Shown here: in pieces, positions 23,516-52,500 of the stretch
How the letters are laid out: each line of letters begins with the position of its first letter
Position numbering within the stretch: position 1 is the first letter of the stretch
Assembly: GCA_017849585.1 (NCBI GenBank)
Contig: JAFIGT010000023.1
Coordinates: 62,001 to 126,000, forward strand
Direction: 5' to 3'
From: Verrucomicrobium sp.
Lineage (GTDB): Bacteria; Verrucomicrobiota; Verrucomicrobiia; Methylacidiphilales; UBA1321
DNA length: 64,000 nt
Made by a program: the position numbers and the translations under genes
The notes under the pieces: model-generated
The model's input: the letters and a program-made list of their open reading frames with translations, nothing else
What the model was told of the DNA's origin: nothing
The model's database searches: none

Positions 23516-23582
23516 GCTCCCTCCAAGTTCTTACGGGCAAACATTGGCAAGAAAAATGCAATCGTCGAGTCTCGAATGCGCC

Positions 23583-24431
23583 TCATTTTGCGGTCAAATG
23601 GGCTACGACGGCCTCCTGCAAAAGGCGATCCACAGCATTTCTCATTGGGCGAGCGCCAAGCGTGCGGTGATAACCTTCCCGTAGAAGCTTCTCGATCATT
23701 TCGGCATTGGTTTTGATTTCAAATCCTAATCCCCTTAACCGCTCGGCTTCCCGTTTTACCATCGCCTCGCAGATTTCCCTCTGCGTTTCGTAACTCAGTC
23801 TTGCAAACACGACCTTATCCGTTATGCGTGCGACCAACTCCGGTCGCAACGTCTGGTCAATTTTGCGCAAAACCGTGCGTTCGATTGTGGCGAAGACGGA
23901 CTTCTCCATTCGCATCGCCTCCGCGGAGCCAATGTTCGACGTGAAAACGATGTAATAGCCATTCAGATTTTTGGTTTCTCCATTGGCCAGGGTGATGTGT
24001 CCGGCATCCAGAATTTGCAAAAACAAATCCAGCACGAGGGGATGCGCCTTCTCCATCTCGTCGAAAAGCAGGGTTCCTTTCTCCGAACGTTTCAGCGCTT
24101 TACCCAGCATCCCGGTTTCGTTTGAAGATTGACCAAGTAATAGCCCAACCGAGGATTGATTCTGGAATTCCGACATGTCGAACCGGTGAAGATGTCCCGG
24201 TCCGAAAAGATATTCCGTAAAGCAAGTGGCAAGCTCGGTTTTGCCGACTCCAGTCGGCCCGACGAACAGGAATGAGCCTTTGGGACGCGATTGCTGTGCC
24301 AGTCCCATTTCGCCGCGGCGCAGCACGGACACTACTCGCGGGATCACATGATTTTGACCTTTGATTGAGGAGAGGAGAGCGCTCTCCAGATTGCGAAGCT
24401 TTTCGATGAGTTCGGGTTGAAATGTATTCAT
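23583..24431 (-). CDS. Single-domain AAA+ ATPase like the ClpA/ClpB D2 domain
   Basis: A 282-aa ATPase with the Clp/Hsp100 second-domain layout: Walker A VGPTGVGKTEL near residue 75, Walker B LLFDEMEKAHP, sensor 1 FTSNIGS, Arg finger LRPELVARI and sensor 2 LGARPMRNAV. There is no N-domain, no first AAA domain and no ClpP-binding loop that I can see. The ATG at 24431 fits; the frame extends 14 codons further. It is divergent from the T4SS operon, and could serve the TIR/RNase H pair downstream or the secretion machine, which lacks VirB11. Confidence 0.8.
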   Translation of the reverse strand: MNTFQPELIEKLRNLESALLSSIKGQNHVIPRVVSVLRRGEMGLAQQSRPKGSFLFVGPTGVGKTELATCFTEYLFGPGHLHRFDMSEFQNQSSVGLLLGQSSNETGMLGKALKRSEKGTLLFDEMEKAHPLVLDLFLQILDAGHITLANGETKNLNGYYIVFTSNIGSAEAMRMEKSVFATIERTVLRKIDQTLRPELVARITDKVVFARLSYETQREICEAMVKREAERLRGLGFEIKTNAEMIEKLLREGYHRTLGARPMRNAVDRLLQEAVVAHLTAK

Positions 24432-24534
24432 GGGTTTTCGCGGAACATACGCCCTCAAAAGCGTCGTTTTCAAAGCCTAAAAAGCAGCACCGCCAATATT
24501 CTCAAAAATTCCGTTTAACTCTCCGTCTGCTCTT

Positions 24535-24549
24535 TAACGGTAACCGTTA
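24535..24549. promoter_or_regulatory. Perfect palindrome upstream of the T4SS operon
   Basis: TAACGGT-A-ACCGTTA is a perfect 15-base inverted repeat 21 bases before the virB2 start and 103 bases before the divergent AAA+ gene. Such a site is likely an operator for the secretion operon. The binding protein is unknown. Confidence 0.5.
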
Positions 24550-24570
24550 GTTCTATGGCTTAATGAAGTC

Positions 24571-24864
24571 ATGATCAATCGCACCATCTTCTATATCAGC
24601 TCGTCTTTATTGGCTCAGACTTCCGGCGGCGATCTCTCCGCGCTCCGGCAGGGATTCGGCACGGCGCTTGGAATCCTTTTCATGTTCGGATTCATCTGGG
24701 GCGTCATCAAAATCTGGTCGGGCGCCAACGCCATCAGCAAAGGCGAGGCCGATGGCAAAATGGGAATCATTGCCGGCATCGTCATCGCGGGAGCCGCCGC
24801 CATCATGGGCGCGCTTTACGCCATCTTCAATTTGAACGGGGCCATTCTCACGCCCTCGTTCTAG
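24571..24864 (+). CDS. virB2: T4SS pilin, VirB2/TrbC-like
   Basis: A 97-aa protein with a short N-terminal signal-like stretch (IFYISSSLLAQ), then two hydrophobic helices (GTALGILFMFGFIWGVIK and MGIIAGIVIAGAAAIMGAL) separated by a short charged loop, the shape of VirB2/TrbC major pilins. It is first in the operon, followed by VirB3- and VirB4-like genes, the standard order. Confidence 0.8.
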   Translation: MINRTIFYISSSLLAQTSGGDLSALRQGFGTALGILFMFGFIWGVIKIWSGANAISKGEADGKMGIIAGIVIAGAAAIMGALYAIFNLNGAILTPSF

Positions 24865-24904
24865 ACCCTGTGGCATCGCTCCGGGCCAGGCTCATCCATC
24901 CACT

Positions 24905-25234
24905 ATGAACGAACTCAGACTCACGGACACCAACGCCGCGGACGATTCCGCCGGATCGGTCTGGGGCCTTGACGGCAACCTATTTATGCCCGTCATCGCC
25001 TCGGCCGTCCTCTCCATCGGGGTGCTCATGGTTCTGTTCGGGTTGTTTCAGGTGGTCTGGTGGCTGAGTTTCGCGCTCGGGGCGGTGCCCTTCGTTTTGA
25101 CACTCAGTTACGTGCTCCTCTTCAAACAAGGCAAGCCGCCCGGTTACGACCGCGATCTCTTCGAACTTTGGATTCTGGGACCGGGATTCTCCTTCAACGC
25201 CCGCCAACAAACCGCCTTTCGCCGCCCGCAATGA
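24905..25234 (+). CDS. virB3: T4SS inner-membrane protein VirB3/TrbD-like
   Basis: A 109-aa protein with two adjacent membrane helices at residues 27-75 and a hydrophilic C-terminus. Size, topology and place between the pilin and the VirB4 ATPase identify it as VirB3. The stop overlaps the virB4 start (ATGA). Confidence 0.75.
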   Translation: MNELRLTDTNAADDSAGSVWGLDGNLFMPVIASAVLSIGVLMVLFGLFQVVWWLSFALGAVPFVLTLSYVLLFKQGKPPGYDRDLFELWILGPGFSFNARQQTAFRRPQ

Positions 25235-27849: not shown

Positions 27850-27864
27850 CCTGAAAGGACTCTC

Positions 27865-28701
27865 ATGAAATTCATTCCAATCCTCGCCCTGATTCTTCTC
27901 ACCGGCATTCGGGGTTTCGCACAGCAAGTCTTCGTTGATCCTTCTTCGGTCTCCCTCACCAAACCGGGAGTGGTGACGATCATTGACACCGACTTGAAAG
28001 GATCATCCGACGGTGGGAGCTCCGCCACGGTCGGCACGTTGACCGCAACGTACTCGAATTACGTCAGTGGTTACGCCGCCAATCAGGGATTCAATTATCT
28101 CGGATTCAGCGCGGCGGCTACCGGCACCCTGAGCGCCGGAACCTATGCCGTCACGACGCACAATAATCCGAAACAGGTGACGGTGATTCTCTGGAACGAA
28201 AGCAGTGACGGCGGCTTCACCATCAATGACGTGGAATTGGCCTATGACTCGGCCAGCGCCGCCGATCAGGCTTTATTCCAATCCTTCATCGCTTCGTTAG
28301 TTCAGCAGCAACTGACGAATCTGCAAAACCAGATTGATTCTCAGCAGAGTCAGATTTCCATTCTGCAACAGTCCGACACGGATCAATCCGCCGCCATCGC
28401 GCAATTACAGAAGCAAGTCGGCGAGTTGATCAATTCCTATAACCAGCTCGCCGAACAAAACACTGCTGTTCAGGACAGGCTTGAGGCCCTTGAAGCGCAG
28501 CTTGCCAGTATCAGCGTTACCAACGGCGCGAACGGGAGTGATGGAAAGAACGGTAAAAGCGCCAATAACACATGGGGATATATTGGAGCGGGTCTGGGTG
28601 CCGCCGGGGTCATCACCGCCATTCTCAATTTTTCCTCCCAGAGCAATCACGCGGAAGACGAACCGCCTTGCAGGGGTTCGTTTGACGGGAGCGACAAATA
28701 G
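27865..28701 (+). CDS. Secreted coiled-coil protein A of the T4SS operon
   Basis: A 278-aa protein with a signal peptide (to GFAQQ, residue 20), a beta-rich head of about 120 residues (PKQVTVILWNESSDGGFTI), a Gln-rich coiled coil at 145-215 (QQQLTNLQNQIDSQQSQIS), then a Gly-rich segment and a hydrophobic helix (WGYIGAGLGAAGVITAI) near the end. The plan recalls surface or pilus-tip adhesins. It is a paralogue of the next gene. I know no named T4SS component like it. Confidence 0.7.
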   Translation: MKFIPILALILLTGIRGFAQQVFVDPSSVSLTKPGVVTIIDTDLKGSSDGGSSATVGTLTATYSNYVSGYAANQGFNYLGFSAAATGTLSAGTYAVTTHNNPKQVTVILWNESSDGGFTINDVELAYDSASAADQALFQSFIASLVQQQLTNLQNQIDSQQSQISILQQSDTDQSAAIAQLQKQVGELINSYNQLAEQNTAVQDRLEALEAQLASISVTNGANGSDGKNGKSANNTWGYIGAGLGAAGVITAILNFSSQSNHAEDEPPCRGSFDGSDK

Positions 28702-28729
28702 GAACCCTCATCGCCCAAGGAACCAATCT

Positions 28730-29764
28730 ATGAAATTTATTCCGGCCATTCTTTTATTTCTCCTTCTGGAGATGACCAACGGCTTTTCGCAACGGGTCTA
28801 TATCAATCCCGGAGGGATTGACGCCACCGTGGCTGGTCCCGTGACTATTATTCTCACGGATAACCGCACTAATGTCAGTGGGCCAAGTTCCGCAACTGTA
28901 GGAAATGTTACGGCTATCTTTAGCGTTGCGCCCGGAGGCAATGGGCATGCCGCGGCAAGCTCTGTGGCCAGCGGCACACTGCCCGCACCGGGTAACTACC
29001 GGGTGACGACAACAGCCGGTCCTCAGCAATGGACCGTGATTCTCTGGAACGAACCCGCCGATGGCTCGGACGGAAGCATCACGCTCAACGATCTCACATT
29101 AATCTATAACTCCGCCACATCGGAGGACCAGACGGCGTTTCAAACGCTGATCGTTTCGCTCGTTCAACATCAGCTCGATGTTTTGCAGGTTCAGATTACA
29201 GCCCAGCAGAGCCAGATCGATGCGCTCAATGATCTCGTGGGCGAGCAGCAGTCGGCCATTTTAAACCTGCAAGGCACTCAATCCGCGATGGCAGGCCAGA
29301 TCGATTCGATCCTGAGCCAGCTCGCCTTACTGCAAACCTCGGATGGTTCGCAAAACGCCGCCATTGCCAGCTTGCAGCAGTCGCAAGCACTTCTTCAGTC
29401 CCAGTACGCCAGTCTCCAAAGCCAACTCGGAGCCCTGCAAGATACGGTGACGAGCCAGCAAAGTGCGATTGAGTCGTTGCAGGAATCGATGGCAGCGATG
29501 CAGGACCAGTATTCGCACCTGTCCGACAGCCTCAATGACCTGCAAACCCAGGTCGATTCGACGCCTCCTCCCGTAACTTCGACCGCGACAACCGTCGTGC
29601 GGGAGTCCGGCACCAAATCCGACGACACGCTTATTCAGGCCGCTCTCGGGCTTGGCGCTGCCGGTGTGATTGGAAGTGTGATCCATTTTTTTACCGAAAG
29701 CGGAGAGGACAAAGACATCTCCGCTACCGGTGTCCCCGCTTTTCCCGAAGGGAGCGCGAAATGA
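28730..29764 (+). CDS. Secreted coiled-coil protein B of the T4SS operon (paralogue of A)
   Basis: A 344-aa protein with the same plan as its neighbour: MKFIPA start and signal peptide, beta-rich head sharing the VTVILWNE-type strand (here WTVILWNEPADGSDGSITL), longer coiled coil at 135-280 with repeated QSQxxxL heptads, and a C-terminal glycine-rich hydrophobic helix. The coiled coil is roughly twice as long as in protein A. Tandem duplication followed by coil expansion is the simplest explanation. Its stop overlaps the lipoprotein start (ATGA). Confidence 0.7.
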   Translation: MKFIPAILLFLLLEMTNGFSQRVYINPGGIDATVAGPVTIILTDNRTNVSGPSSATVGNVTAIFSVAPGGNGHAAASSVASGTLPAPGNYRVTTTAGPQQWTVILWNEPADGSDGSITLNDLTLIYNSATSEDQTAFQTLIVSLVQHQLDVLQVQITAQQSQIDALNDLVGEQQSAILNLQGTQSAMAGQIDSILSQLALLQTSDGSQNAAIASLQQSQALLQSQYASLQSQLGALQDTVTSQQSAIESLQESMAAMQDQYSHLSDSLNDLQTQVDSTPPPVTSTATTVVRESGTKSDDTLIQAALGLGAAGVIGSVIHFFTESGEDKDISATGVPAFPEGSAK

Positions 29765-30174
29765 GCTTTCGACTCTACACGGCCTTGTCGCTGGTTTGTC
29801 TCTTTGTCCTCACGGCTTGTTCCAGCACGCGCGGCCTTTATGACGCCGGAGCCGCCGCCGCGGGAGGCGTGATCGCCAACAAGCTAAGCGACGGCGATCC
29901 GCTCATGACCGGAGTGGGCGCGGCGGGAGGCGTGGCCGTTTCCGAAATCGCCCAGACGTTGTCAGCCAAGCAGGGACAGACGCAATACACCAACGGTTAT
30001 CAGCAGGGACGAAGCGATGCGGTCAAGCAGCAGTACTGGATTGTCCAGAACCAGCAAAAGCAGTCGAAAACCCCGCCGCCGCAGACCTCCTATCTGCCCA
30101 TCACCGTGCCCGGAGCGACGACCAACGGCGTCACCACGCTCCCGCGCACCGAATACATCCGCGTGGAGCAATAA
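29761..30174 (+). CDS. Outer-membrane lipoprotein of the T4SS operon
   Basis: A 137-aa protein with a clear lipobox, LTAC-SS, at residue 20. The mature part is Gly/Ala-rich (AGAAAAGGVIANKL, GVGAAGGVAVSEI) and then Gln- and Pro-rich. It could play the VirB7 role of anchoring the outer-membrane ring, but sequence does not prove it. It overlaps the upstream gene by 4 bases and is followed after 1 base by the VirB5-like gene. Confidence 0.7.
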   Translation: MSFRLYTALSLVCLFVLTACSSTRGLYDAGAAAAGGVIANKLSDGDPLMTGVGAAGGVAVSEIAQTLSAKQGQTQYTNGYQQGRSDAVKQQYWIVQNQQKQSKTPPPQTSYLPITVPGATTNGVTTLPRTEYIRVEQ

Positions 30175-30175
30175 C

Positions 30176-30961
30176 ATGAAAATTCTCCTCATCCTCCTCT
30201 CACTTCTCGCCGTCCCGCTGGCCCGAGCACAATACGCCGTATCGGTGGTCAATGACCCTGTGGCCGTCCAGAACCACATGGAAGAACTGTTGAAATGGAA
30301 CGAATCGATCCAGCAGTTGAACCAACAGTTGCAGCAAATGCAGCAGGCGGTGCAGCTCGCCCAGCAGATGAAAAGCGTGGTTGGCAACCCGGCGGCAGCG
30401 GCGCAGTCGATGCAGTTGCAACTTCTCGGTTCCTCGCAAATCGGGCAATCCGCTGGCCAGCTCAGCTCCGCGCTCAACCAGACGGCAAATGGAGCCGTGG
30501 CGCTCGAAAACAGCGGATCGGCGTTGTTCCGTCCGGTGGAAATGAAAACGCCGGGCGGATTTTCGATGAGCTTTGCGGCGGATTCCTTCAAACCGTTCGC
30601 CTCGATTCAGAGCCATGACGCGAATGTGAACACGGTCACGTCGGACACCGCCGCCCGCATTGCCGCCTTGGAGCAGCAGAAAGCGACGACGCTCGAGCAG
30701 ATCCAGACCGCGACCGACCAGAGCACCGTGCAAAAACTGACCGCCCAGGCGAGCGCCCTTGATGGACAAATTGCCGCCCTGGGACAGCAACAGCAGACCG
30801 CCACCAACCAGCTCGTTTCCCAGCAAATCAGCAATGAGAACGATGCGGCGATGAAGGCGCAGGCGGCCAATCAGTCCGCCGACCATGAACTCAGCCTTTC
30901 TTTGCAAAACCTGATGCAGTGGCAGGGGCAGGTCACGAGCGACCACACACCGTTCAAATAA
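30176..30961 (+). CDS. virB5: T4SS pilus-tip protein VirB5/TrbJ-like
   Basis: A 261-aa exported protein: signal peptide ending ARA-QY near residue 19, then long Gln-rich helices (IQQLNQQLQQMQQAVQLAQQ and IAALEQQKATTLEQIQTA), as in TrbJ/VirB5. Its place directly before the VirB6-like gene is the canonical order. The ATG at 30176 lies 1 base after the preceding stop. Confidence 0.75.
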   Translation: MKILLILLSLLAVPLARAQYAVSVVNDPVAVQNHMEELLKWNESIQQLNQQLQQMQQAVQLAQQMKSVVGNPAAAAQSMQLQLLGSSQIGQSAGQLSSALNQTANGAVALENSGSALFRPVEMKTPGGFSMSFAADSFKPFASIQSHDANVNTVTSDTAARIAALEQQKATTLEQIQTATDQSTVQKLTAQASALDGQIAALGQQQQTATNQLVSQQISNENDAAMKAQAANQSADHELSLSLQNLMQWQGQVTSDHTPFK

Positions 30962-30973
30962 ACCGACATCCTT

Positions 30974-32224
30974 ATGAGCATCAGCGATCTCATTCCCAAT
31001 TTGCGGCCGATGGTGGAAAGCCTGAACACACAGTTCCGGTTCATCTGCTTCTTCATCCTCACCGCTTCGATCATCGTGCGTACGGGGAAGGGCAGCCAAT
31101 CCATCTCGAATCTGCTGCGTCCGATTGTCACCGCGATTGGCGTGTGTGCCCTCATCGCCTCGCTTCCATTTTGGTTCAACCTCGTTCGCGACACGTTCTG
31201 GAATATTGCCGTCGCGATTCGGCGTGAGACCACCGGCAGCGTCGATGGAGTTGGCGCGTCTTTGATGCAATTGCTGCAGCCGCCGGAAGACGGGATCAAC
31301 TGGCTCGATGTCAGCAACTCGCTGATGAAAGCGGTTCAATACGCCCTCGGCTGGATCATCGTCTGGCTCGGATGCCTCATCCAAGTGCCCATGATGCTCG
31401 TGCAGTATGTCATGGAATGTCTCTGTTACTTATTCCTGCCGATTGCTGTCTCGCTTTTTGCCTTCGATGGCACCAAGGGACTCGCCACCCGCTATATTCA
31501 ACAGACCCTTGCCATTTTGGCATGGCCGATTGGATTTGCGGTGGTTGATCTCGTCGGATACGCGCTGCTCACCAGCGTCACTTCCGCTGTCAGCGCGGGG
31601 GCCATCGTACAAGGAGCCGCCACGCAGTTTACGCCCGCCAACATGGCCATCGGCGGTGTCGTCGCCGTCTGGCTGATTCTCGGCAGCCTAGTGACGCCGG
31701 TCGTCATGCAGATGCTTTTCTGTTCCGGCGTCCCGCTTTCCTCCTCCATCGGACAGTCCGTGCAGATGGGATTGGCCGTCGCTGGCTTGAGCCGGATGAT
31801 TGCCGCGGGAGGAGTCGGCGGGAAAAGTATCGCCAGTTCCAGCCAAAGTAGTTCCGGCCCGGATGCGCCCCCGGCTTCTTCGATCGCTTCGACAACGCCG
31901 CCACCACGTTCACCGCAACCCGTCGATTTACAGCCAGCCGCGCGGTTCGCATCGCAACCGGAAACCGCGCCATCGAGCGGCGGAGCGTCCGGCGCGAAGA
32001 TACCGGGAGTCGTTCAGACTTCACGCGGCTCATTTGCCGTGGGACGCGCCGCCGATGCGATCACGGCCCAGCAGGCCCAGGGCGTCGCCAACGAAAACGG
32101 CACGCCTTTCACCCAAGCCTTTTCGGATGGAACGGTCGTCACGCATCAGCCGCAACCGCCCGCCAATCCCCACGCCCACTCGAAACTCGTTTCATTCCTT
32201 CACTCCGAGCCCACCACCGTATGA
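30974..32224 (+). CDS. virB6: T4SS polytopic inner-membrane protein VirB6/TrbL-like
   Basis: A 416-aa protein. Residues 20-280 hold six or more membrane helices (FICFFILTASIIV, YALGWIIVWLGCLIQVPMML, CYLFLPIAVSLFAF, MAIGGVVAVWLILGSLV), and the last 130 residues are Pro/Ser/Ala-rich and soluble. This is the VirB6/TrbL layout. Overlaps the next start by 4 bases. Confidence 0.82.
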   Translation: MSISDLIPNLRPMVESLNTQFRFICFFILTASIIVRTGKGSQSISNLLRPIVTAIGVCALIASLPFWFNLVRDTFWNIAVAIRRETTGSVDGVGASLMQLLQPPEDGINWLDVSNSLMKAVQYALGWIIVWLGCLIQVPMMLVQYVMECLCYLFLPIAVSLFAFDGTKGLATRYIQQTLAILAWPIGFAVVDLVGYALLTSVTSAVSAGAIVQGAATQFTPANMAIGGVVAVWLILGSLVTPVVMQMLFCSGVPLSSSIGQSVQMGLAVAGLSRMIAAGGVGGKSIASSSQSSSGPDAPPASSIASTTPPPRSPQPVDLQPAARFASQPETAPSSGGASGAKIPGVVQTSRGSFAVGRAADAITAQQAQGVANENGTPFTQAFSDGTVVTHQPQPPANPHAHSKLVSFLHSEPTTV

Positions 32225-32868
32225 ATACGCTCCACGAAACCCGCGTTACAATACCGTCCAGCGTCCCCACGCCGAAACCGGCTCCCACGGTCCTGCGGCT
32301 CTTTGCCGATCATGGCTGGGCGGCGCGGGTTTGGTGTGCCATCGCACTCGTTGCGGTCGCAGCAGCCATCGTCCAGCCCTTCTTAATCATTAGCTCGCTT
32401 CGCACCAAGGAGCGCGTCGTCATTCTGGACGAGACCGGCACCTATCATATTTCGCCGCTCCTGAACTTCGAGGATGCGACCAAATTGCATACCTCGCAGA
32501 CCTTGCTCGCCTGTCTCGCTCTCTTGGAACGAAACCCCAACGGTTTTGATTATCCCGAGCTGTTGGAGAAATTGTTTCTGCCGGAGGCGGTAAAGCAGGC
32601 CAAGGCGATCCAGAGCACGCAAGCCACCGAATTCAAGGCGAAGCAGATTCACCAGAAGGTGGAAGTATTCCGGCTCGACGTGCTCCAAACCCGCAATGAC
32701 CGGGTGTTGGTTGAAGCCACCGGACAACTGATTCGTGTCGGGCTCTTCAACGATGAGTCGTTCACCGAAAGCACGCCGTTCCGCGCCCGCTTCACTCTTC
32801 TTCGCAACCCCAACCTAACCACGAATGGTCGTTTCCCCCTCGCTATATGGAAATTCCAAATCGATTAA
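32221..32868 (+). CDS. virB8: T4SS inner-membrane assembly protein VirB8-like
   Basis: A 215-aa bitopic protein with one membrane helix at 38-58 (VWCAIALVAVAAAIVQPFL) and a periplasmic domain of about 150 residues, the size of VirB8/TraE-type NTF2-like domains. Identification rests on topology, length and position between VirB6- and VirB9-like genes. Overlaps the next gene by 22 bases. Confidence 0.65.
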   Translation: MNTLHETRVTIPSSVPTPKPAPTVLRLFADHGWAARVWCAIALVAVAAAIVQPFLIISSLRTKERVVILDETGTYHISPLLNFEDATKLHTSQTLLACLALLERNPNGFDYPELLEKLFLPEAVKQAKAIQSTQATEFKAKQIHQKVEVFRLDVLQTRNDRVLVEATGQLIRVGLFNDESFTESTPFRARFTLLRNPNLTTNGRFPLAIWKFQID

Positions 32869-33716
32869 TCCTCACCGCGCTCCTGTTCTCCGTCTCGCTG
32901 GCGATTGCCTCGGCTCAGGCCATTAAAACCTTTCCGCTCGACGAGCAGACCGTTTACCACCTGAAGGTCGGAACGGACAAAGTAACGACGATTACGTTCC
33001 CCATCGCCATTACCGCGATGGAAGGAAGTGGACTGACTCTGGATCCAAAAACACCGGCCAAACTGTTGCTGAGCTACCACGCTGGCGACCGGTTCTTTTC
33101 GGTTCGCACTTTGGTCGAGGGAGCTACTGGCAGCCTGAACGTCATCTGCAATCGCGCCGTCTACGTGCTGGAATTCATCACCGACAAGGAACCGTTTCAA
33201 TCGGTGCAATTCTATATAAACGATGGTCCGGCAGGAATGAGCCAGGGCGTGCGCAGGAACGTTGACCCTGCGCGTTTGCTTGGATTGCTCGATAAGGCCA
33301 AGGCGTATCCGCTTCTTTCCAAGCAGTACCCGGAAATGGTCTCGCAGATCGCTAAAGCTGAGCCGTTCTCGACTGCTCTCTATAGCGGCTTCGATGTGAT
33401 CCTGACGCGGGTATTCCGGTTCGATGCGGACGATGCACTCGCTTTCAAAATCGAATTGGTGAACCGCACCGACCATCCGATTCTCTACGTCCCGCAGTCA
33501 CTTGCGGTTCGAGTGGGTCCTACAGTTTATTGGAGCGCCCTGTCCGATGCCTCGGGAATCATGCCTGCCGGGGTGAAGGATTCCCAAACGGGCGAGATCA
33601 CTCCCAGTCACAGCCAGGCATGGTTCGTCATCTGCGGCACTGCAGGACATGGCCGCAATCATCTCTCGGTAACGAACAAGTTCAACGTGCTCGTTTTTCG
33701 GCGGGAGGCTTTATGA
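32847..33716 (+). CDS. virB9: T4SS outer-ring protein VirB9/TrbG-like
   Basis: A 289-aa exported protein with a signal peptide ending near residue 23 (IASAQA). The N-terminal beta domain (VYHLKVGTDKVTTITFP) corresponds to the start of VirB9/TrbG proteins, where the mature chain opens with a transport-associated beta strand. The C-terminal part is beta-rich. It is directly followed (ATGA overlap) by the VirB10-like gene. Confidence 0.65.
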   Translation: MEIPNRLILTALLFSVSLAIASAQAIKTFPLDEQTVYHLKVGTDKVTTITFPIAITAMEGSGLTLDPKTPAKLLLSYHAGDRFFSVRTLVEGATGSLNVICNRAVYVLEFITDKEPFQSVQFYINDGPAGMSQGVRRNVDPARLLGLLDKAKAYPLLSKQYPEMVSQIAKAEPFSTALYSGFDVILTRVFRFDADDALAFKIELVNRTDHPILYVPQSLAVRVGPTVYWSALSDASGIMPAGVKDSQTGEITPSHSQAWFVICGTAGHGRNHLSVTNKFNVLVFRREAL

Positions 33717-34717
33717 ATCCCCGAAAATTCCTCGACTTTTTCAAAACCCGAACCGGGCATTTCTGCCTCTTCGCCGTGGCTTTCATCGTCGGAGGCGTTC
33801 TCCTCTACACCTTCAATCACCGGCCATCGGCGACGGTCAGTGTTGTTCAGCCGCCGAAACCAGTCATCTCAAAAGAGCAGATCGAAACCGAGCTTCGCAA
33901 TGGAGCCAGCGCGGACCAGTTGAACAATCGCAAACCGAAGCTCGCCACCCCGTCGGCTCCCATCGCTTCCATTCCGGTTCCTCCCTCATTGCCGATTTCG
34001 CTCTATCACAGCGGCACCGCCGAAAAGGAACTGTCCGAGAATTACGCTCCCTATGGACGGCTCATTCCCTGTGAGACGGTGATTACAATCGATTCGGCCA
34101 AGATCGAAACGCCGATCATCGGTTTTGTCACCGAGGATGTTTGGCACGAGGGAAAGCTCATCATCCCGGCCGGAGCGGAAGTACACGGCAAAGCGCAGGT
34201 TGACCCTTCCCGCGAACGCATCGCCAGTGATAGCAGTTGGGTCATCGTTTGGCGCACGACCGACCGGCTCAATGGCGCGGAACTTCCTTTGCGCGGCATC
34301 GCGCTCGACATGGAACGCCATTACGGAGCGAATTCGTGGGAAATTACGGACGGTTCCGCCGGATTACGCGGGCAGGTTTTGAAAACCGATAACATGGCGG
34401 AGATCAAACTGTTTGCCTCCACGTTCCTGAGCGCCGCCGCTTCCGGCTTTCTCGATACCGAGACCAGCTTTAACAGTCTCACGGGTCAGACGGCGCAAAC
34501 GGCCTTGAGCACACCGAAAAACGCCGCCTTGCAGGGAGTCAGCGCCGTGCTTGCCAGTTACGCGCAGCAAATCGCCAATTCGATCAAGCGTGACGGATTC
34601 TATGTCCGCGTGCCGGCAGGGAAACAGTTTTATCTCTACGTCACTCAACCGATCGATTTGGAAAACGCCCAGCGCGGCAATTCCCGAATCGCTCTCAAAC
34701 CCGAAGGAAAGAAATAG
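33713..34717 (+). CDS. virB10: T4SS channel scaffold VirB10/TrbI-like
   Basis: A 334-aa protein: cytoplasmic N-terminus, one membrane helix at 17-37 (FCLFAVAFIVGGVLLYTF), a Pro-rich linker (PPKPVISKEQI, IPVPPSLP), then a C-terminal beta-barrel-type domain (YGRLIPCETVITIDSA, GKLIIPAGAEVHGKAQV, VPAGKQFYLYVTQPI). These are the hallmark segments of VirB10/TrbI. The start overlaps the virB9 stop. Confidence 0.88.
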   Translation: MNPRKFLDFFKTRTGHFCLFAVAFIVGGVLLYTFNHRPSATVSVVQPPKPVISKEQIETELRNGASADQLNNRKPKLATPSAPIASIPVPPSLPISLYHSGTAEKELSENYAPYGRLIPCETVITIDSAKIETPIIGFVTEDVWHEGKLIIPAGAEVHGKAQVDPSRERIASDSSWVIVWRTTDRLNGAELPLRGIALDMERHYGANSWEITDGSAGLRGQVLKTDNMAEIKLFASTFLSAAASGFLDTETSFNSLTGQTAQTALSTPKNAALQGVSAVLASYAQQIANSIKRDGFYVRVPAGKQFYLYVTQPIDLENAQRGNSRIALKPEGKK

Positions 34718-39171: not shown

Positions 39172-40800
39172 TTACCAAGCTCTTCGATCAATGATGCTGC
39201 GTTCATGAAATCGGGTGGAAATTAATGTCACTGGTGCAGCAGAAACACGCTCCACTTCTTCTATAAATCGAATCGTTGGATCAGTAAGTTGCTCAAAACG
39301 TCGCGCATTTACATTCTGTCGATCAATATAATCGGCAAAAGTCAGCGCAATGTCTGTAGGCGCGTTTAACGAAGCTGCTTTTCGAAGCAAAACCCAATCA
39401 AACTCTGCAACCCGGCGAGGATTGCCACTTACAGAGCCAACCTCATGCGAGGCAATCTTTCCGCGTTTAAAGTGAGCCCGCCGCTCCACTTCTGCCCAAG
39501 TGATTTCTTTCGACATGAATCCAGAGGTATATTCTTTGCTTGGTGAACCCACCCGAATCGGATAGCTGCGACAAACCATAACTACTTTACGCACCCGACT
39601 TGGTGAAATTCCTGCTTCAGCCAAGCAGCCTGCCACTGTTGTATCTCGTGACGTAGTATGGGGATAATGTCCATGATAGAGGCTTAATCCTGTGCCTTGA
39701 GTGCCTTCTAATAGAGCCCTCCTTCCCGCCCGAAAAATACGTTGAAGTACATCGCAAGAATCATGTAGATAAGGTCTCAAGGCGGGGATATCCTGCGCAA
39801 GTTTTACACCGGATTTACCGCGGCCCGTAATACGTCGCGCTGTCGCTAATCCAACACCTTGACCAGTCGAACCAATCAAACCTTTTACTCCCCCTTTTCC
39901 AGATTCTCGATTTCGATCGATCTCACTAATTGTCATGACTTGCGGATCGATCATTAACCTATTAACGTCAATCTTTGCGTTTGCAATTTCCTCAAGAAGG
40001 GTTGGTACATGTACGACAGCACCAGCTCCGATAAGCAATTTAGCTTCGCTGGAAAGCGATCCGGAGGGAAGATGCCGGAACGTAAAGTTTTTGTCTGTTC
40101 CGGGAATTTTGACCTTATGACCTGCATTTGGGCCGCCAACCCGAATGAGAAGCTCGTATTCGGGGCTCAAATACGACGCTACTTGGCCCTTACCTTCACT
40201 CCCATACTGGCCACCCACCATCACGTCTACGAGACGAACGTATTCGCGTCCATACCAGCCAAGATGACTCGCAACGCGGACGACGATATCCTCTTCATTG
40301 CAGAGATTGCTATCGATGACGACGTCGGCTATGCGACGAAGATCCTCGACCTTGGATTCAGTGCGATTGGAAAGGACATCGGCGTATTTTCCCAACTCAG
40401 CAATATCGGTTTTGCGCTTTTTTCGCTGTTCGTACCGTCGCTTTAACTCCTTTAATGGCGCGGTAAGGTGGACGTGAACAATGCGCCTTCCATACGCTTT
40501 ACGAAGAAAGTCGATTTGGCCGGGATGCCTAACAGAATCGACAACGATGCCACCTTTTACAGATTCCTGTCGTTCGATTTTCTGTAAATCGTCACGCACC
40601 CATGCTCCACGCGTCTGGCGATCTAACCGCTCACCAAGTTGCTGTAGTGCAGTGCGCTCTAGCTTTAAGTTCTCACCACGCGCCTTAATGAAGCTCCACG
40701 TCTTTACATGTCGAAAATTGAAATGCTCTGCGAGATTTTCCGCAAGTCTGCTCTTTCCCGCACAAACGTGCCCGGAAAGGATCACAATTTGTTCAGCCAT
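39172..40800 (-). CDS. P-loop nucleotide kinase fused to a PurZ-like adenylosuccinate synthetase
   Basis: A 542-aa fusion. Residues 1-180 are a P-loop kinase (VILSGHVCAGKSRLAENLAE; IVVDSVRHPGQIDFLRKAYG; lid region LKRRYEQRKKRKT) like dNMP or dephospho-CoA kinases. Residues 190-540 are an adenylosuccinate synthetase: GGQYGSEGKGQ, VGGPNAGHKV, GSTGQGVGLATARR, EGTQGTGLSLYHGHYPHTTS, EVGSVSGNPRRVAEFDWV. In ordinary PurA the first motif is WGDEGKGK; here the catalytic Asp is Ser, as I recall for phage PurZ enzymes, which act on dGMP. The C-terminal part is shorter than E. coli PurA (about 350 vs 432 residues). So it is unlikely to be housekeeping purine synthesis. It lies 17 bases after the IrrE-macro gene. 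Confidence 0.85.
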   Translation of the reverse strand: MAEQIVILSGHVCAGKSRLAENLAEHFNFRHVKTWSFIKARGENLKLERTALQQLGERLDRQTRGAWVRDDLQKIERQESVKGGIVVDSVRHPGQIDFLRKAYGRRIVHVHLTAPLKELKRRYEQRKKRKTDIAELGKYADVLSNRTESKVEDLRRIADVVIDSNLCNEEDIVVRVASHLGWYGREYVRLVDVMVGGQYGSEGKGQVASYLSPEYELLIRVGGPNAGHKVKIPGTDKNFTFRHLPSGSLSSEAKLLIGAGAVVHVPTLLEEIANAKIDVNRLMIDPQVMTISEIDRNRESGKGGVKGLIGSTGQGVGLATARRITGRGKSGVKLAQDIPALRPYLHDSCDVLQRIFRAGRRALLEGTQGTGLSLYHGHYPHTTSRDTTVAGCLAEAGISPSRVRKVVMVCRSYPIRVGSPSKEYTSGFMSKEITWAEVERRAHFKRGKIASHEVGSVSGNPRRVAEFDWVLLRKAASLNAPTDIALTFADYIDRQNVNARRFEQLTDPTIRFIEEVERVSAAPVTLISTRFHERSIIDRRAW

Positions 40801-43638: not shown

Positions 43639-43684
43639 CAATCACTCATCGTCAAGGCCGGACGTGAAATTGGCCACTCCAGAT

Positions 43685-45361
43685 ATGTCTACACCCACCA
43701 TCACCGAAGAAGTATTGAACCTGCCGTTAACCGACCTCATCCGGTCAGTAACCAATCGCAAAACCTTCAGCCCGGAAGCTCTCAAGGAAATGTCGGAATC
43801 GATCAAGGAAAAGGGCGTGCTGCAACCCATCGTTGCACGTCCCGTCAAATCGATTGAAGACGAGGCGGTACGCGCCGCCGCGATCAAGGCGGGAGCGAAA
43901 TATGAAATTATCATGGGTGAGCGCCGTTACCGCGCCTCCAAGCTGGCCGGAAAAACAGACATCAAGGCAATTATTCGCCCGGTGTCCGATTATGACGCAC
44001 TCATGGTGCAATTAATGGAAAATGTCCACCGGGAAGAACTGCCGCCCCTCGAAGAGGCCGAGCAATTCCATGGATTGCTCGCCAATGGCAAGACAACCAT
44101 TGCCGACCTTGTGGTGAAGATCGGTAAGCCTCGGCTGTACGTATATCAGCGTGTCAGCTTGTTGAAATTACCTGATAAGGCAAAGAAGGCATTGCGCGAG
44201 GGAAAGCTGTCGCTTCCGGTGGCACTGTTGATTGCCCGCATTCCCAATCGGACGGTTGCAGAGTATGCGACGACCCGCATTCTTAAGGGAGACATGCGCG
44301 GCAATCCGTTCTCCCTCTCGGAGGCGCATCATCTCATCCTGAATGAGTGCATGATGCAGTTGAAGGAAGCGCCGTTCGACACTAAGGATAAGGAACTCGT
44401 AGCAGAGGCGGGACCGTGCTCGACATGCCCCAAACGCACCGGGAACGAAAAGGAATTATTTGCGGACGTGGGCCGTTGCGATGTCTGCACCGATCCGGTC
44501 TGCTTCCAGAAGAAGCGGGAAGCGGCTCGCGCTCTCGTGCTGGCGAAAGCGAAGGGGGAGGGCAAGAAAGTCCTGACCCCGGACGAGTCGGCCAAATTGT
44601 ACCCGTACCAGCATGGGCAGCTTGGCTATGACGCGCCCTATATCGACCTCGATACGCAATGTCCCTTCGCACCCAGGAAGACTTGGGGACAGGTCATTGC
44701 CCGGTTACCCAAGAACGAACGGCCCGAGATCACCGTGGCGGTTGATAAGATCGGCGGGATTCACGAACTTATCGGACGTAAGGAAGCGGGAGAAGCGGCC
44801 CGTTCGTTGGAACTGGCCACACCAACCGAGACGCGCGGCGATCTTTCGCCCTCTGCCATTCAGCAGCGGCAGCAGGCCCGTGAGACCCGCGAACGGCACG
44901 AGCGGATGATTCGCACGGTCGATCTGGTGATTACTGCCGTGCTCGAAAAACAGGCTAAGGCGAAAGACGCCAAGGCGCTGGCGCGGCTTTTACTTGCGGT
45001 CGCGGTGAAAGCGTCGAACTTCGACACGAAACGCCGTGTCAGCAAACGGCACGGCTTCACCACGCCGAAGCAGAACGGTGAATTGATTCCGTACTATCTG
45101 AAGCAGGCCAAAGCCGCCGCTGCCGATCCGCTCCCGTTCGCGCTGGAAACGCTGCTCTGGCAGGAGTCGCTTTTCGCCGACAGAGCCTTGCCGGAAATCC
45201 TCGTGGAAGCGTGCAAACTCTACGGTATCGACGCGAAGAAAATCGAAGCCGCAGCCAAGGAAAAGTCCGCGAAGGATGAATCGGAGGCAGCGCCAGTCAA
45301 GGAAGTCAATCGCTTGGCGCAGAAGCCGCTTTCTCCCGCCAAACTCGTAGCCTCGAAATAA
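43685..45361 (+). CDS. ParB/RepB/Spo0J-family protein with Cys-rich insert
   Basis: A 558-aa DNA-binding protein. The ParB nuclease-like/CTP-binding fold spans residues 8-110 (LKEMSESIKEKGVLQPIVAR, IIMGERRYRASKLAG, QLMENVHREELPPLEEA), followed by the helix-turn-helix (TTIADLVVKIGKPRLYVYQR). A Cys cluster CSTCPKRTG ... CDVC ... CFQKK near 245-285 suggests a metal site. The long C-terminus is helical and charged. It is roughly double the size of chromosomal ParB and resembles plasmid and ICE versions. ATG 43685 chosen; GTG 21 bases upstream possible. No ParA partner is adjacent. Confidence 0.88.
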   Translation: MSTPTITEEVLNLPLTDLIRSVTNRKTFSPEALKEMSESIKEKGVLQPIVARPVKSIEDEAVRAAAIKAGAKYEIIMGERRYRASKLAGKTDIKAIIRPVSDYDALMVQLMENVHREELPPLEEAEQFHGLLANGKTTIADLVVKIGKPRLYVYQRVSLLKLPDKAKKALREGKLSLPVALLIARIPNRTVAEYATTRILKGDMRGNPFSLSEAHHLILNECMMQLKEAPFDTKDKELVAEAGPCSTCPKRTGNEKELFADVGRCDVCTDPVCFQKKREAARALVLAKAKGEGKKVLTPDESAKLYPYQHGQLGYDAPYIDLDTQCPFAPRKTWGQVIARLPKNERPEITVAVDKIGGIHELIGRKEAGEAARSLELATPTETRGDLSPSAIQQRQQARETRERHERMIRTVDLVITAVLEKQAKAKDAKALARLLLAVAVKASNFDTKRRVSKRHGFTTPKQNGELIPYYLKQAKAAAADPLPFALETLLWQESLFADRALPEILVEACKLYGIDAKKIEAAAKEKSAKDESEAAPVKEVNRLAQKPLSPAKLVASK

Positions 45362-48331: not shown

Positions 48332-49486
48332 ATGGCGAAAGAGATTACTCGATATATTCGGCGGGAAACCGAGCGTGAATTATGGGCTAGATCAGCTGGT
48401 CGTTGCCAATTTGATGGATGCAATAAGCCCCTATATAAATCCCCCTTAACCCAGGAACAGGTTAACATCTCCGAAAAAGCTCACATCTATTCTTTTTCGG
48501 AACTGGGTCCACGAGGTTGGGGGCCTTTCATTACAAACACGAAGCAGCTCAATGACGTGAGCAATCTCATGCTCATTTGCCATGACTGCCACAAAACCAT
48601 CGACGCCGATAAAGCCGGTGAGCGCTATCCGGGAGATCTCTTGCTCAAGTGGAAGGAGGAGCACGAAAAGCGTATTTATGTGGTCACAGGCGTGGATCCT
48701 ACAAAAATATCATGCGTTATTCTCTACGGAGCTAACATCGGGAACGAAAGTTCTATGCTGCAGCCCGCCGCAACAAAACAGGCACTTTTTCCCGATTGGT
48801 ACCCCTCTGAGGAACGTCCGGTTTGCCTTTCCATGAGTTGGGAGGGGAAAGACAGCGATCCGCACTATTGGGAGACAGAGGCGAGAAATCTTGAAAGTGC
48901 CTTCGACCGTCGAGTTCGTCCGCTTCTGAATGGTACTGAGCATGCCCATTTTTCACTGTTCGCGCTTGCACCGATGCCGCTCCTGATTTTGTTTGGCTCG
49001 CTCCTCACCGATAAAATTCCAGCACAGACCTATCAGTTACATCGTGAGCCTTTCCAAACATGGAGATGGCTGGAAGACGCAAGTGGGATCGAGTTTGAGA
49101 TGAAACGGCCGCCCTCCTTCGATCACGCCCCAGTGCTAATCATTTCGTTGAGTGACCATATAGCGCGATCGCGCGTTACGGGCGTCGTGGGAGAAAACAT
49201 TTCTGTCTGGGAACTAACGATTCACTCGCCCCATAATGATTTCCTTAAATCCAAGGACCAGTTATCCCTATTCAGACAGGCAACTCGGCGCTTGTTTGTG
49301 GAGATTGGTCAGATGCACGGAAAAGATATCCCAATCCTGATTTTCCCCGCCATGCCTGTCGCTTGTGCGGTCGAGTTGGGCAGAGTGCGTATGCCCAAAG
49401 CGGATAATCCCTGGATCGTATACGATCAGAATAACAAACATGGGAAGTTTATACGCACTTTAGAAATTGGAGTTCATAATGAATGA
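48332..49486 (+). CDS. cap5: CBASS effector: HNH nuclease fused to SAVED sensor (Cap5)
   Basis: A 384-aa protein. Residues 1-110 are an HNH nuclease: zinc-type Cys pair CQFDGC, AHIYSFSELGPRG, and NLMLICHDCHKTIDAD. Residues 125-384 fit the SAVED domain that binds cyclic oligonucleotides (VCLSMSWEGK, FSLFALAPMPLLILFGSLLT, PVLIISLSDHI, GKDIPILIFPAMPVACAVEL). Cap5 proteins degrade double-stranded DNA when the phage-triggered signal binds. First gene of the operon; its last 8 bases overlap the CD-NTase. Confidence 0.92.
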   Translation: MAKEITRYIRRETERELWARSAGRCQFDGCNKPLYKSPLTQEQVNISEKAHIYSFSELGPRGWGPFITNTKQLNDVSNLMLICHDCHKTIDADKAGERYPGDLLLKWKEEHEKRIYVVTGVDPTKISCVILYGANIGNESSMLQPAATKQALFPDWYPSEERPVCLSMSWEGKDSDPHYWETEARNLESAFDRRVRPLLNGTEHAHFSLFALAPMPLLILFGSLLTDKIPAQTYQLHREPFQTWRWLEDASGIEFEMKRPPSFDHAPVLIISLSDHIARSRVTGVVGENISVWELTIHSPHNDFLKSKDQLSLFRQATRRLFVEIGQMHGKDIPILIFPAMPVACAVELGRVRMPKADNPWIVYDQNNKHGKFIRTLEIGVHNE

Positions 49487-50693
49487 CGTTTTCGCATCAA
49501 AGTTGATCCAGGAAATTGCTGAAACCATCGACATACCGCAATCCGCTTACGACAAGGCGGAGTCCCGATATGAGGATCTGGGAAAATGGTTCGGTAGTGC
49601 TGAAGCTTACTGCAGCCGCTTTAAACCCCACGTTTACACACAAGGATCGTTCCGACTGGGAACAGTCATTCGTCCAATCGATCCCACAAGTGAATATGAT
49701 TTGGACATGGGATGCCGTCTTGAGTCGGGAATAACAAAAGCCAGTCACTCTCAGAAGCAATTGAAGGAGTTGGTCGGGCGTGACATTGAGCAATACCGGA
49801 TCGCTCGCGGAATCAAAGAAGCTAAAGAGGAGAAGCATAGATGTTGGAGGCTAAAATATGCTGATACCCTGAGATTTCATCTAGATACTGTACCGTCCAT
49901 TCCTGAAAGTGCTGAGCGCCGACGACAAATCTCCGAATCTGTCATGCGGGAAGGAGCGTCGCTCGATCTAGCAAAGTTAGTCGCGGATTTAACAGGAGCC
50001 ATTACCGATAATCGCATGGCGAACTATTCGATTCTGGATTCCAACTGGCGTCTAAGTAACTCAGAGGGGTTTGCTCGTTGGTTTGAGTCACGAATGAAAT
50101 TGGCAAAGACCTTGATGGTGGAGCGCGCATCAATTGAACGAAAGGCGACCATCGACGACCTCCCCGCCTATCGGTGGAAATCCCCCCTTCAAAGATCGGT
50201 ACAGCTTCTGAAGCGTCATAGAGATGCGATGTTCGTAAACAATCCTGACAGTAAACCAGCCTCTATTATAATCACGACTCTAGCGGCTCGGGCCTATCAA
50301 GGCGAAGTCGATATAGCGGTGGCTTTACAGGGAATACTAACAAAGATGGGGACCCTCGTGCGTCCGAATGCGCCCCGCGTGCCAAACCCAGTAAATCCGG
50401 CAGAAGATTTCGCAGATAGATGGGTGGATCCCTCGTTAAACTTGGAAGCCAATTTCTGGCGATGGCTGCGGCAAGCACAAAATGACTTCGCTGCGATTGG
50501 AAAGGAAAAGAAAGTAGAGTTGATCGTTGAAAACTCGAAGAAAAATTTCGCTGTCAATCTTAGCTCGGCTGAATTAGTCAAAAAATTTGGGACTCCGTCT
50601 GGAGAAGGACTTTTGAAAACTGCAGCCATACCTGCCGGATTAAGCTTTCCCTCAAAACCTTTGATTCCTTCGAAGCCAGCTGGGTTTGCGTAA
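49479..50693 (+). CDS. CD-NTase, cyclic oligonucleotide synthase of CBASS
   Basis: A 404-aa nucleotidyltransferase that makes the CBASS second messenger. The active site is visible: YTQGSFRLGTVIRP (GS motif) followed by EYDLDMGCRL (metal Asp pair) at residues 50-80 and a third acidic residue in RFHLDTVPSIPE near 135. The C-terminal helical part ends in a Pro/Lys/Ala-rich tail (KPLIPSKPAGFA), the kind of C-terminus that the Cap2 ligase conjugates in type II systems (family knowledge). Clade not assignable by eye. ATG 49479 overlaps the effector stop. Confidence 0.9.
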   Translation: MNDVFASKLIQEIAETIDIPQSAYDKAESRYEDLGKWFGSAEAYCSRFKPHVYTQGSFRLGTVIRPIDPTSEYDLDMGCRLESGITKASHSQKQLKELVGRDIEQYRIARGIKEAKEEKHRCWRLKYADTLRFHLDTVPSIPESAERRRQISESVMREGASLDLAKLVADLTGAITDNRMANYSILDSNWRLSNSEGFARWFESRMKLAKTLMVERASIERKATIDDLPAYRWKSPLQRSVQLLKRHRDAMFVNNPDSKPASIIITTLAARAYQGEVDIAVALQGILTKMGTLVRPNAPRVPNPVNPAEDFADRWVDPSLNLEANFWRWLRQAQNDFAAIGKEKKVELIVENSKKNFAVNLSSAELVKKFGTPSGEGLLKTAAIPAGLSFPSKPLIPSKPAGFA

Positions 50694-50700
50694 TTGTGAT

Positions 50701-52500
50701 ATGACACCTTGGTTTTTGAGAGATCCGAAACGCCTTACAGCAGAACGGTCCGGCATAGATGAGTTGCTCGCTAGACCTGAAAGCTGGCTCATAGGAGCTC
50801 AATGGACTCTGGTCGACGGCGGTCTTTGTATCGATGCAATAATTCGTTCGCACGGCTACGATTATGAAATTAGGTTGACGTTTCCAACCTTATTTCCAGA
50901 TGTTCCAATATACATTTGCCCTCAGAACGAGAACCTCCGGATTTCAACACATCAGTACGGTGGGGTAGATGGCCCTCTTTGCCTCGAATGGGGACCGGAT
51001 AACTGGCACTCGGGAATTACTGCGGTACAAATGCTTGAAAGTACCTATCGACTTTTAGAAATCGAGAATCCTCGAGGCAAGGCTGCGACCGGTTCCTCGA
51101 TCATCGCACCATCCCGGCATCACCTAAGTGTAGGACAAGAACTTCGCACTGAGCGCTCCCGGTGGTACTATAGCAAGGAGTTTGAAAATTTTCTCCGTGG
51201 GCAGGCGGCTTTTGCGGTGGGAGGCTTTAAATTTTCATGGCGAATTTTGGAGAATAGTCAAATTGTTCTCATACACGAAGCAAAGCTCATTGGACAAGAA
51301 CCGGCGTGGTGCGATAAGAGCGTGCCGACTGTTATTCCCGATGCTACAGATACGACACAATTTAGCGGAATTTGGATTAAAACAGATCTCCCCGCTGATG
51401 TCATAAGCGGAATTCAAAAGCTGAATGAATTGCGAGTTCTCCTCGCTAATCAGAATGGTCATGCATTGTTTGCCACAGATGGCAGCGCTCCGGTTGAAGG
51501 GTTCAACAGAACCATAGCAGGAGTATTGATCGTCGACTCTGCTGGACTACCGCATTTCTCGCTGGTGCTGCATGGCGAGGACGTGATTTCTCGCTCAATG
51601 GTACAGTCAAACGGTGCCCCAGATCCAGCTCGGGCGCCTGACGAAGCCGGTCTTCGTGGCAAGAGCGTGGGAATCGTCGGACTGGGTTCTGCAGGGAGCA
51701 AAATTGCGTTATCATTGGCACGCATGGGAATCAAAACATTCTATCTTTCCGATTATGATGTGCTGTTACCTGAAAATCTGAGAAGAAACGCTCTTAATTG
51801 GCAAAATGTCACCGAACACAAGGTCGATGCGGTATCCCATGCTATCCGATTGATTGCTCCCGATGCTAAAGTCGAGGTAAGTCGATTGCATTTGACAGGG
51901 CAGGAATCAAGCGCGTCGGTCAGCGGCGTCCTGGCAAGACTAGGCGGTTGCGATCTTATCATTGATGCTACAGCGAACCCTCGAGTCTTTAATCTTTTGG
52001 CGTCAGTAGCACGGATGGCGAACCGGCCAATGGTATGGCTGGAAATATTTGCAGGCGGAATCGGTGGCCTGATTGCCCGCAGTCGACCTGGACTCGACTC
52101 CTCACCCCAGGAGATTCGCAGTTCCTATCTCCAGTTTTGTTCCAACAACCCATTCCCGCTCCTGGCCAAAATACCAAGGAATTACTCGCTAGAGACCGAG
52201 GACGGAGAGGTTCTCTCCGCTTCTGACGCAGATGTGGGCGTTATTGCAGATCACAGTGCCCGGCTTGCCTGTGATTGTCTTGCTTCAAAAGAAGCATCGA
52301 TTTTCCCTCACTCATTCTATCTAATTGGATTAAAGAAAGGATGGATTTTCGAGGCTCCGTTTGCAACGGTTCCCTTGGCCTTAGACAACCTTAATACCGC
52401 ACCAAATGCTCCGGTGAATGATCCTCAGCTCGATCCTGAAAATGTTGCGTTTCTAATAAATCTTTTGGGAGAGAAAGATGCGCCTCCTTCTTCCTCCTGA
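50701..52500 (+). CDS. cap2: CBASS E2-E1 ubiquitin-like ligase (Cap2)
   Basis: A 599-aa fusion. The N-terminal E2-like domain carries GGVDGPLCLEWGPDNW with the predicted catalytic Cys near residue 95. The C-terminal ThiF/E1 adenylation domain begins with VGIVGLGSAGSKIALSLAR near residue 325, followed by FYLSDYDVLLPENLRRN and DLIIDATANPRV. In type II CBASS Cap2 links the CD-NTase C-terminus to targets and primes it. ATG 50701 is preferred; GTG- or TTG-type extensions of 5 residues are possible. Overlaps the JAB gene by 23 bases. Confidence 0.9.
   Translation: MTPWFLRDPKRLTAERSGIDELLARPESWLIGAQWTLVDGGLCIDAIIRSHGYDYEIRLTFPTLFPDVPIYICPQNENLRISTHQYGGVDGPLCLEWGPDNWHSGITAVQMLESTYRLLEIENPRGKAATGSSIIAPSRHHLSVGQELRTERSRWYYSKEFENFLRGQAAFAVGGFKFSWRILENSQIVLIHEAKLIGQEPAWCDKSVPTVIPDATDTTQFSGIWIKTDLPADVISGIQKLNELRVLLANQNGHALFATDGSAPVEGFNRTIAGVLIVDSAGLPHFSLVLHGEDVISRSMVQSNGAPDPARAPDEAGLRGKSVGIVGLGSAGSKIALSLARMGIKTFYLSDYDVLLPENLRRNALNWQNVTEHKVDAVSHAIRLIAPDAKVEVSRLHLTGQESSASVSGVLARLGGCDLIIDATANPRVFNLLASVARMANRPMVWLEIFAGGIGGLIARSRPGLDSSPQEIRSSYLQFCSNNPFPLLAKIPRNYSLETEDGEVLSASDADVGVIADHSARLACDCLASKEASIFPHSFYLIGLKKGWIFEAPFATVPLALDNLNTAPNAPVNDPQLDPENVAFLINLLGEKDAPPSSS

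Follow-up and report, generated by a model that had tools for sequence, protein, structure and literature searches.

What does a bacterial gene encode that joins a nucleotide-kinase-like domain to an adenylosuccinate synthetase (AdSS) domain with Ser in place of the PurA Asp, and what purpose could such a protein serve? The gene lies in a 64,000-nt stretch of a Verrucomicrobium sp. contig, here called the window (Table 1). The initial annotation had read YGSEGKG instead of the PurA Asp motif and had noted that phage PurZ enzymes carry Ser at the Asp position. The ORF and the motif are located exactly as listed in Table 1, and a published analysis of 147 phage sequences gives Ser instead of Asp13 in 100% of them (PMC12884076). 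In the literature covered, PurZ chemistry is described only for phages and a few archaeal sequences.

Table 1. Features of the window and the data on which their assignment is based (positions counted from the first nucleotide of the window)
Feature	Position	Strand	Basis and remarks
Conjugation genes: TraG/T4SS coupling protein, TraG P-loop, TrbL, TrbI	20668-34717		
DUF7002 gene, 225 aa	38501..39178	-	PF22531, 2e-70; model pLDDT 97.4; 7-nt overlap with 3' end of fusion gene
Kinase-AdSS fusion gene, 542 aa	39172..40800	-	ORF, ATG start; Pfam/NCBIfam; model pLDDT 93.5
PurZ-like AdSS domain, residues 188-542	39175..40239	-	Trees, residue table, fold matches
YGSEGKG motif, residues 199-205, Ser201 replacing PurA Asp13	40186..40206	-	Sequence
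N-terminal P-loop NMP-kinase-like domain, residues 1-181	40258..40800	-	Profile; fold match 3lw7, Z 18.6
M78 metalloprotease with ALC1-like macro domain (M78-macro), 452 aa	40818..42176	-	PF06114, 9.2e-11; 17-nt gap upstream of fusion gene
ParB	43664-45361		
CBASS: HNH-SAVED effector, DncV-like cyclase, E2-E1 protein	48332-52500		
CRISPR type I-C, cas7c and cas8c	59014-61703	-	

The AdSS domain and its relation to PurZ

Judged by its sequence, the C-terminal part of the fusion is a complete AdSS: residues 191-540 match the AdSS models PF00709 (7.1e-54) and archaeal-type NF003295 (1.7e-85). The nearest solved structure by sequence is Pyrococcus PurA (5k7x, 8e-56), which is also the best fold match (Z 46.0), followed by 6fm1 (Z 41.8) and 7vf6 (Z 41.7), which represent the PurZ/PurZ0 fold. 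The N-terminal domain matches Pfam AAA_18 (residues 6-135, 7e-10) and its model is nearest to the adenylate-kinase-related protein 3lw7, a predicted nucleotide-monophosphate-kinase fold in keeping with the fused nucleotide kinase proposed initially. Among defense proteins its closest profile is the N-terminal part of the PADLOC dCTPase (1.5e-11), and it matches NF041025 (5.6e-8). Residues G10, G15 and K16 of Walker A and residues R100, H109, H111 and R122 are invariant in 64 of 64 rows; the Lys of NAGHK was rejected as a family signature, since its position varies (K, T, S, Q, R, M, W).

When 84,980 species genomes were scanned, 305 relatives came up, and the best 79 of these 305 loci were kept: 74 from bacteria and 5 from archaea, with 15 phyla represented. 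The unanimity of Ser in the 79 loci is biased because they were partly selected by the pattern Q[YWF]GSEGKG. The Ser of YGSEGKG is kept in all 17 full-length relatives collected without motif selection: two from a whole-protein genome search (L005, L006), eight plasmid loci from whole-protein TBLASTN (L019-L024, L028, L029), two reached through DUF7002 (L294, L295), and five that entered via another pattern, with a motif outside the Ser scan pattern (L039, L042, L045, L047, L092). The Ser of the fusion family is not a chance feature.

In an 82-row tree, 29 fusions formed one clade (support 100). It lay within a larger clade (99) that comprised every Ser-type AdSS, phage PurZ and PurZ0 included, and counted 59 rows; next to this Ser clade stood the short Asp-type enzymes of archaea, and bacterial PurA lay beyond a long branch (100). 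In a second tree, which was calculated with the Ser column removed from 58 rows, thus dropping 24 of the 82, and whose bootstrap was not fully settled (0.986), the Ser rows again grouped together (41/41; 100/99), as did the fusions (100/100). The viral short sequences in the trees were partly motif-selected, while the PurZ, PurZ0, Bacillus phage, Sinorhizobium medicae and rhizobial rows were not. As placed by these trees, the AdSS domain of the fusion belongs to a third, bacterial and archaeal clade beside PurZ and PurZ0 and is nested in neither. The phylogeny suggested in the initial annotation thus sets it outside bacterial PurA, and an ordinary bacterial PurA is ruled out by the tree together with the residues described below; the TIGR00184 score reaches only 196.7 of 395.55 bits. 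Nor is the domain, by profile, a phage-type PurZ proper, because it misses the 300-bit cut-off of the NCBIfam PurZ model NF038379 (176.3 bits).

Several positions besides Ser agree with a PurZ-like rather than PurA-like enzyme. As the alignment has no E. coli row, the E. coli numbers used here were assigned by motif according to the PurA literature. The position of K331, the guanine-site Lys of PurA, is occupied by Phe in 29/29 fusions, as in PurZ, and the Asp following it is kept in 29/29, as in PurZ0; the aspartate-site Arg (R305 position) is kept in 29/29 as well. The amino donor would be aspartate and the acceptor a guanine nucleotide. Residue R303, which contacts the 2'-OH in PurA, is Asn in the window copy and Arg in 19 of the 29 fusions; because of this persistence it was rejected as a discriminator, and deoxy-specificity of the fusion AdSS appears likely rather than settled. 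Ile precedes RV in 59/59 Ser rows (29/29 fusions), whereas Thr or Ser is found there in 23/23 Asp rows. The loop after the PIRV block has at least 10 residues in 59/59 Ser rows (10-17 in 29/29 fusions) and 8 in 23/23 Asp rows; in S-2L PurZ, this insertion draws V241 nearer to the ribose 2' carbon (PMC8342488), and published work links it to the exclusion of the 2'-OH.

A separate canonical PurA is encoded on contig C39 of the window organism's genome (PF00709, 584 bits), and a separate full-length PurA was found in 29 of 30 carrier genomes tested, these being 30 of the genomes of the 79 loci; the remaining genome, G242, carries the fusion but gave no match to a separate PurA. This genome, the kept aspartate-site residues and the closeness to Pyrococcus PurA would fit a divergent PurA isoform that stands in on IMP and provides adenine nucleotides, for instance to sustain the NAD turnover of the ADP-ribosyltransferase. 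We consider this very unlikely, as Asp13 is lost in all members seen, the clade is that of PurZ and PurZ0, and PurA is already present in the other 29 genomes.

An AdSS paralog on an R. leguminosarum plasmid (L026) lies in a deazapurine-type cluster with FolE, QueE, QueC, nitrile hydratase, PurB and IMPDH. It is of the Asp type (GDEAKG) and falls outside the Ser clade, so that the deazapurine antibiotic cluster, considered as a candidate, belongs to a different AdSS paralog. That the fusion could likewise be part of a biosynthetic cluster for a secreted nucleoside, for which L026 offers an AdSS example, is barely credible, its constant partners being a predicted ADP-ribosyltransferase (ART) and a macro-protease.

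Partner genes and distribution

Partner counts cover 78 of the 79 kept loci, the fusion of L077 being split over two ORFs. DUF7002 was found in 76 of these loci, directly downstream of the fusion in 70, and both loci without it terminate at a contig edge. M78-macro is immediately upstream of the fusion in 59/78. Some loci differ in composition: a trypsin-like protease with the effector-associated domain EAD1 occupies the usual M78-macro position in Sorangium cellulosum (L064, 6895-7902); in a Synergistaceae genome without a separate PurA match, the fusion is preceded by a Fic/DOC-family gene (L046, 5683-6288); and a Nitrososphaerota MAG (L078/L307) has two opposed fusion genes with one DUF7002 and one M78-macro.

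The distribution of the fusion is rare and patchy. It occurs in 3/236 genomes of the window organism's class and is absent from the two other genomes of the genus, and in a phylum sample around one archaeal carrier it was found in 1/145 genomes, the carrier itself. A plasmid search matched 91 records, 8 of which cover at least 80% of the query; these eight and two others (S. medicae and R. leguminosarum) were examined. No fused form was seen among the 218 phage records with a match, none of which covers 80% of the query. IMG/VR contributed three full-length fusions (L109-L111) among 80 kept loci; near the fusion of L109, on a contig classed as viral, there is a DUF1937 gene (2144-2929), which may resemble phage DmtZ.

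DUF7002 has a DarT-like ADP-ribosyltransferase fold according to its structural model. The best match is DarT1 (8baq; E 5.4e-6, probability 1.00, Z 10.6 over 162 residues), followed by DarTG and DarT and then by Tpt1 and other ADP-ribosylating enzymes; DarT-family rows have Z 8.6-10.6, and Tpt1 rows reach 8.8 over at most 98 residues. At the sequence level DUF7002 matched no DarT model, PF22531 being the only match at E up to 0.01, and its profile gives E 0.09 against DarT1. Residues H19 and E192, candidates for the NAD-binding His and the catalytic Glu, are invariant in 71/71 rows, and E192 may be equivalent to DarT Glu160. DarT1 modifies the guanine amino group (PMC11543638). The fusion was not found within the retrieved region of 11/13 further DUF7002 loci; therefore, DUF7002 as an obligate partner of the fusion was rejected. 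In six actinobacterial loci (L300-L303, L305, L306) DUF7002 is directly or closely downstream of dnaE (identified by Pfam in four and joined by BLAST in two) and there is no kinase-AdSS gene, which points to a DNA-related role. The operon analysis thereby provides DUF7002 with a predicted activity.

In M78-macro, HEIAH is found at residues 100-104 and the macro domain starts at about residue 285. The profile of 40 such proteins matches the ALC1-class macro domains 2afc (2.8e-49) and SCO6735 (5e3b, 2.2e-46) and the proteases IrrE (2.3e-12) and CapP (7t5t, 5.5e-11); the PADLOC capP match has E 4.7e-21. The macro position nearest to the TARG1-type Lys is K in 23 and R in 20 of 59 rows, the Lys thus not being kept, which at first suggested a reader. 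This is countered by Q366, which aligns with Gln85 of SCO6735 and is invariant in 40/40 rows and in 59/59 of an earlier set. SCO6735 hydrolyzes DarT-type thymidine ADP-ribosylation of DNA, and its Gln85 is catalytic and essential (PMC9411070).

Relatives of the operon have variant partners. In eight of eight rhizobial and Methylobacterium plasmid loci an HD protein replaces M78-macro; it has a weak YfbR-like match (4.8e-5), and the protein at the DatZ position of phiVC8 is clearly within the YfbR-like family (1.7e-14). A further protein of these plasmid loci, 450 aa long, matched nothing in Pfam. The two fusion loci reached only through DUF7002 both contain the fusion, Ser and an HD protein of the same group, one of these HD proteins giving no Pfam match when scanned alone at E 1e-5. 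A PRA-PH/MazG-like gene, of the MazZ superfamily with DR2231 as the nearest solved relative, is beside the operon in 12/78 kept loci (11/13 actinobacterial and one betaproteobacterial). HD and MazG-like genes did not occur together in any locus among the relatives examined (8 and 12 loci, respectively). In the window operon neither gene adjoins, and there is no adenylosuccinate lyase gene. On an S. medicae plasmid (L025) an unfused Ser-type AdSS, which branches near the fusion clade (95/83), adjoins HD YfbR-like, dCTP-deaminase-like and ThiF proteins and possibly represents a second defense type.

Genomic setting and a probable role in conflict

The conjugation genes of the window suggest an integrative conjugative element or a plasmid, and with the bacterial and archaeal clade this setting bears out the initial proposal of a PurZ-like enzyme outside phages. 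The operon of the window has CBASS and CRISPR genes as neighbors (Table 1), and AbiE, AbiJ or SIR2/DUF87 genes neighbor several plasmid relatives. PADLOC families among neighbors (159 from 134 proteins, compared with 68 from 116 in matched control regions) indicate a modest, weak defense enrichment, the control regions also holding real defense genes. PADLOC-DB has no model of its own for DUF7002 (no match) or the fusion (partial matches only, the best being dCTPase, 41.9 bits). The partners, that is, the DarT-like ART, the macro-protease and the YfbR-like or MazG-like enzymes, and the defense island had no place in the initial annotation; with them, a conflict system becomes likelier than a biosynthetic pathway.

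The architecture of the fusion, its clade, conserved partners, setting and folds are established by sequence, tree or predicted fold. We favor, at a probability of about 0.55, a mobile module of three genes that serves in conflict, most likely against phages, and in which the fusion is the nucleotide-modifying enzyme. The following account of substrate and product, of the targets of the kinase and the ART, and of trigger and purpose is inferred. The AdSS domain would convert a guanine deoxynucleotide (dGMP, perhaps GMP), aspartate and NTP into dSMP, an N6-succinyl-2-amino-purine nucleotide that would then be phosphorylated by the fused kinase. During infection this would drain the dGMP/dGTP pool and form a non-canonical deoxypurine nucleotide, of the dZ type after the action of host PurB. 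DUF7002 would ADP-ribosylate DNA or nucleotides and so stop replication, the macro domain would undo this modification in the resting cell, and the M78 protease could be the switch. In relatives, the YfbR-like HD protein or the MazG-like pyrophosphatase may supply dNMP or trim competing dNTPs, comparable to DatZ and MazZ, which in Z-phages accompany PurZ in a toolkit making and enriching dZTP. By this analogy, the recurrent pairing of Ser-type AdSS with YfbR-like or MazG-like enzymes, alongside enzymes of the DNA-ADP-ribosylation type, is the strongest indirect argument. The explanation is weakened because the domain is nearest, by sequence and by fold, to 5k7x, an archaeal PurA that uses IMP, and not to PurZ, because the window operon is devoid of HD, MazG and adenylosuccinate lyase genes, and because most of the further DUF7002 loci are without the fusion and the PADLOC enrichment is modest.

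The same HD and MazG-like hydrolases would be compatible with nucleotide depletion only. In that case the AdSS would be an effector of abortive infection that drains dGMP/GMP (or IMP), much as dCTP deaminases and dGTPases act against phages; its product would have no role, and the kinase would be a regulatory P-loop domain. The anti-phage dCTP deaminase, whose N-terminal part the kinase domain matches, provides a precedent for a kinase-like domain on a nucleotide-altering enzyme. The kinase residues invariant beyond Walker A and a second, separate kinase gene in some loci suggest real phosphorylation, and we regard depletion alone as somewhat unlikely.

Copies on conjugative plasmids and on the window's conjugative element, as well as a DarT fold adjoining a macro domain, could also indicate a toxin-antitoxin or plasmid-maintenance module with DUF7002 as toxin, M78-macro as antitoxin and a kinase-AdSS that adjusts the nucleotide target, and with no specific anti-phage role. 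We think this rather unlikely, as several copies are on long chromosomal contigs with differing gene surroundings and the one in the window has CBASS and CRISPR as neighbors. This reading and the anti-phage one overlap, because DarTG serves as a toxin-antitoxin pair and in phage defense alike (PMC11543638). Distinctly unlikely, in our estimate, is a variant in which, upon infection, the fusion produces a succinylated or 2-amino-purine deoxynucleotide, the DarT-like enzyme ADP-ribosylates this nucleotide or DNA carrying it, and M78-macro senses the product and fires its protease; such a writer, transferase and reader-protease operon would, if real, be a new class of nucleotide-based immunity.

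The anti-phage module that we favor looks like an unstudied defense system. A literature search found no paper joining AdSS with macro/ART, defense, antiphage kinase, conflict or toxin-antitoxin, and nothing on DUF7002 or on the combination of macro domain, DarT and ImmA; general defense papers surfaced in which the word PurZ was not found. Subscription papers were mostly outside the searches, so a prior description is possible. If the module functions as proposed, the Z-type purine route would serve not viruses alone but also hosts, perhaps as a weapon, and Ser-type AdSS with YfbR-like or MazG-like partners would suggest where, on the host side, phage Z-clusters could have originated.

Comparison with known systems

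The fusion shares with the phage N6-succino-2-amino-2'-deoxyadenylate synthases PurZ and PurZ0 the Ser for Asp13, the PIRV loop insertion, a common clade and the fold, as well as, in some relatives, the YfbR-like and MazG-like partners; it differs from them by its own bacterial and archaeal clade, the fused kinase, and the ART and macro-protease partners. Unlike the Z-cluster (purZ, datZ and mazZ), the window operon has no genes for an HD dATPase or a MazG-like dGTPase and is on a conjugative element, not in a phage. The archaeal short PurA (Pyrococcus horikoshii PH0438, 5k7x) is a similarly compact AdSS, the best structural match, and shares the long branch that separates both from bacterial PurA, but it has Asp13, Thr before RV and a short loop, and is unfused.

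Like DarTG, the module combines a DarT-like fold with an adjoining ALC1-class macro domain, whereas DUF7002 is a separate Pfam family, the macro domain is of the SCO6735 type and fused to M78, and the PurZ-like kinase fusion is a third gene. The anti-phage dCTP deaminase has a related N-terminal P-loop domain on a nucleotide-altering enzyme; in the fusion, AdSS takes the place of the deaminase, and the ART and macro-protease partners are added. Finally, CapP, the M78 protease of CBASS regulation, is an M78/IrrE-type metalloprotease like M78-macro; the latter, beside which no CapH-type repressor gene was noticed, in addition carries the macro domain.
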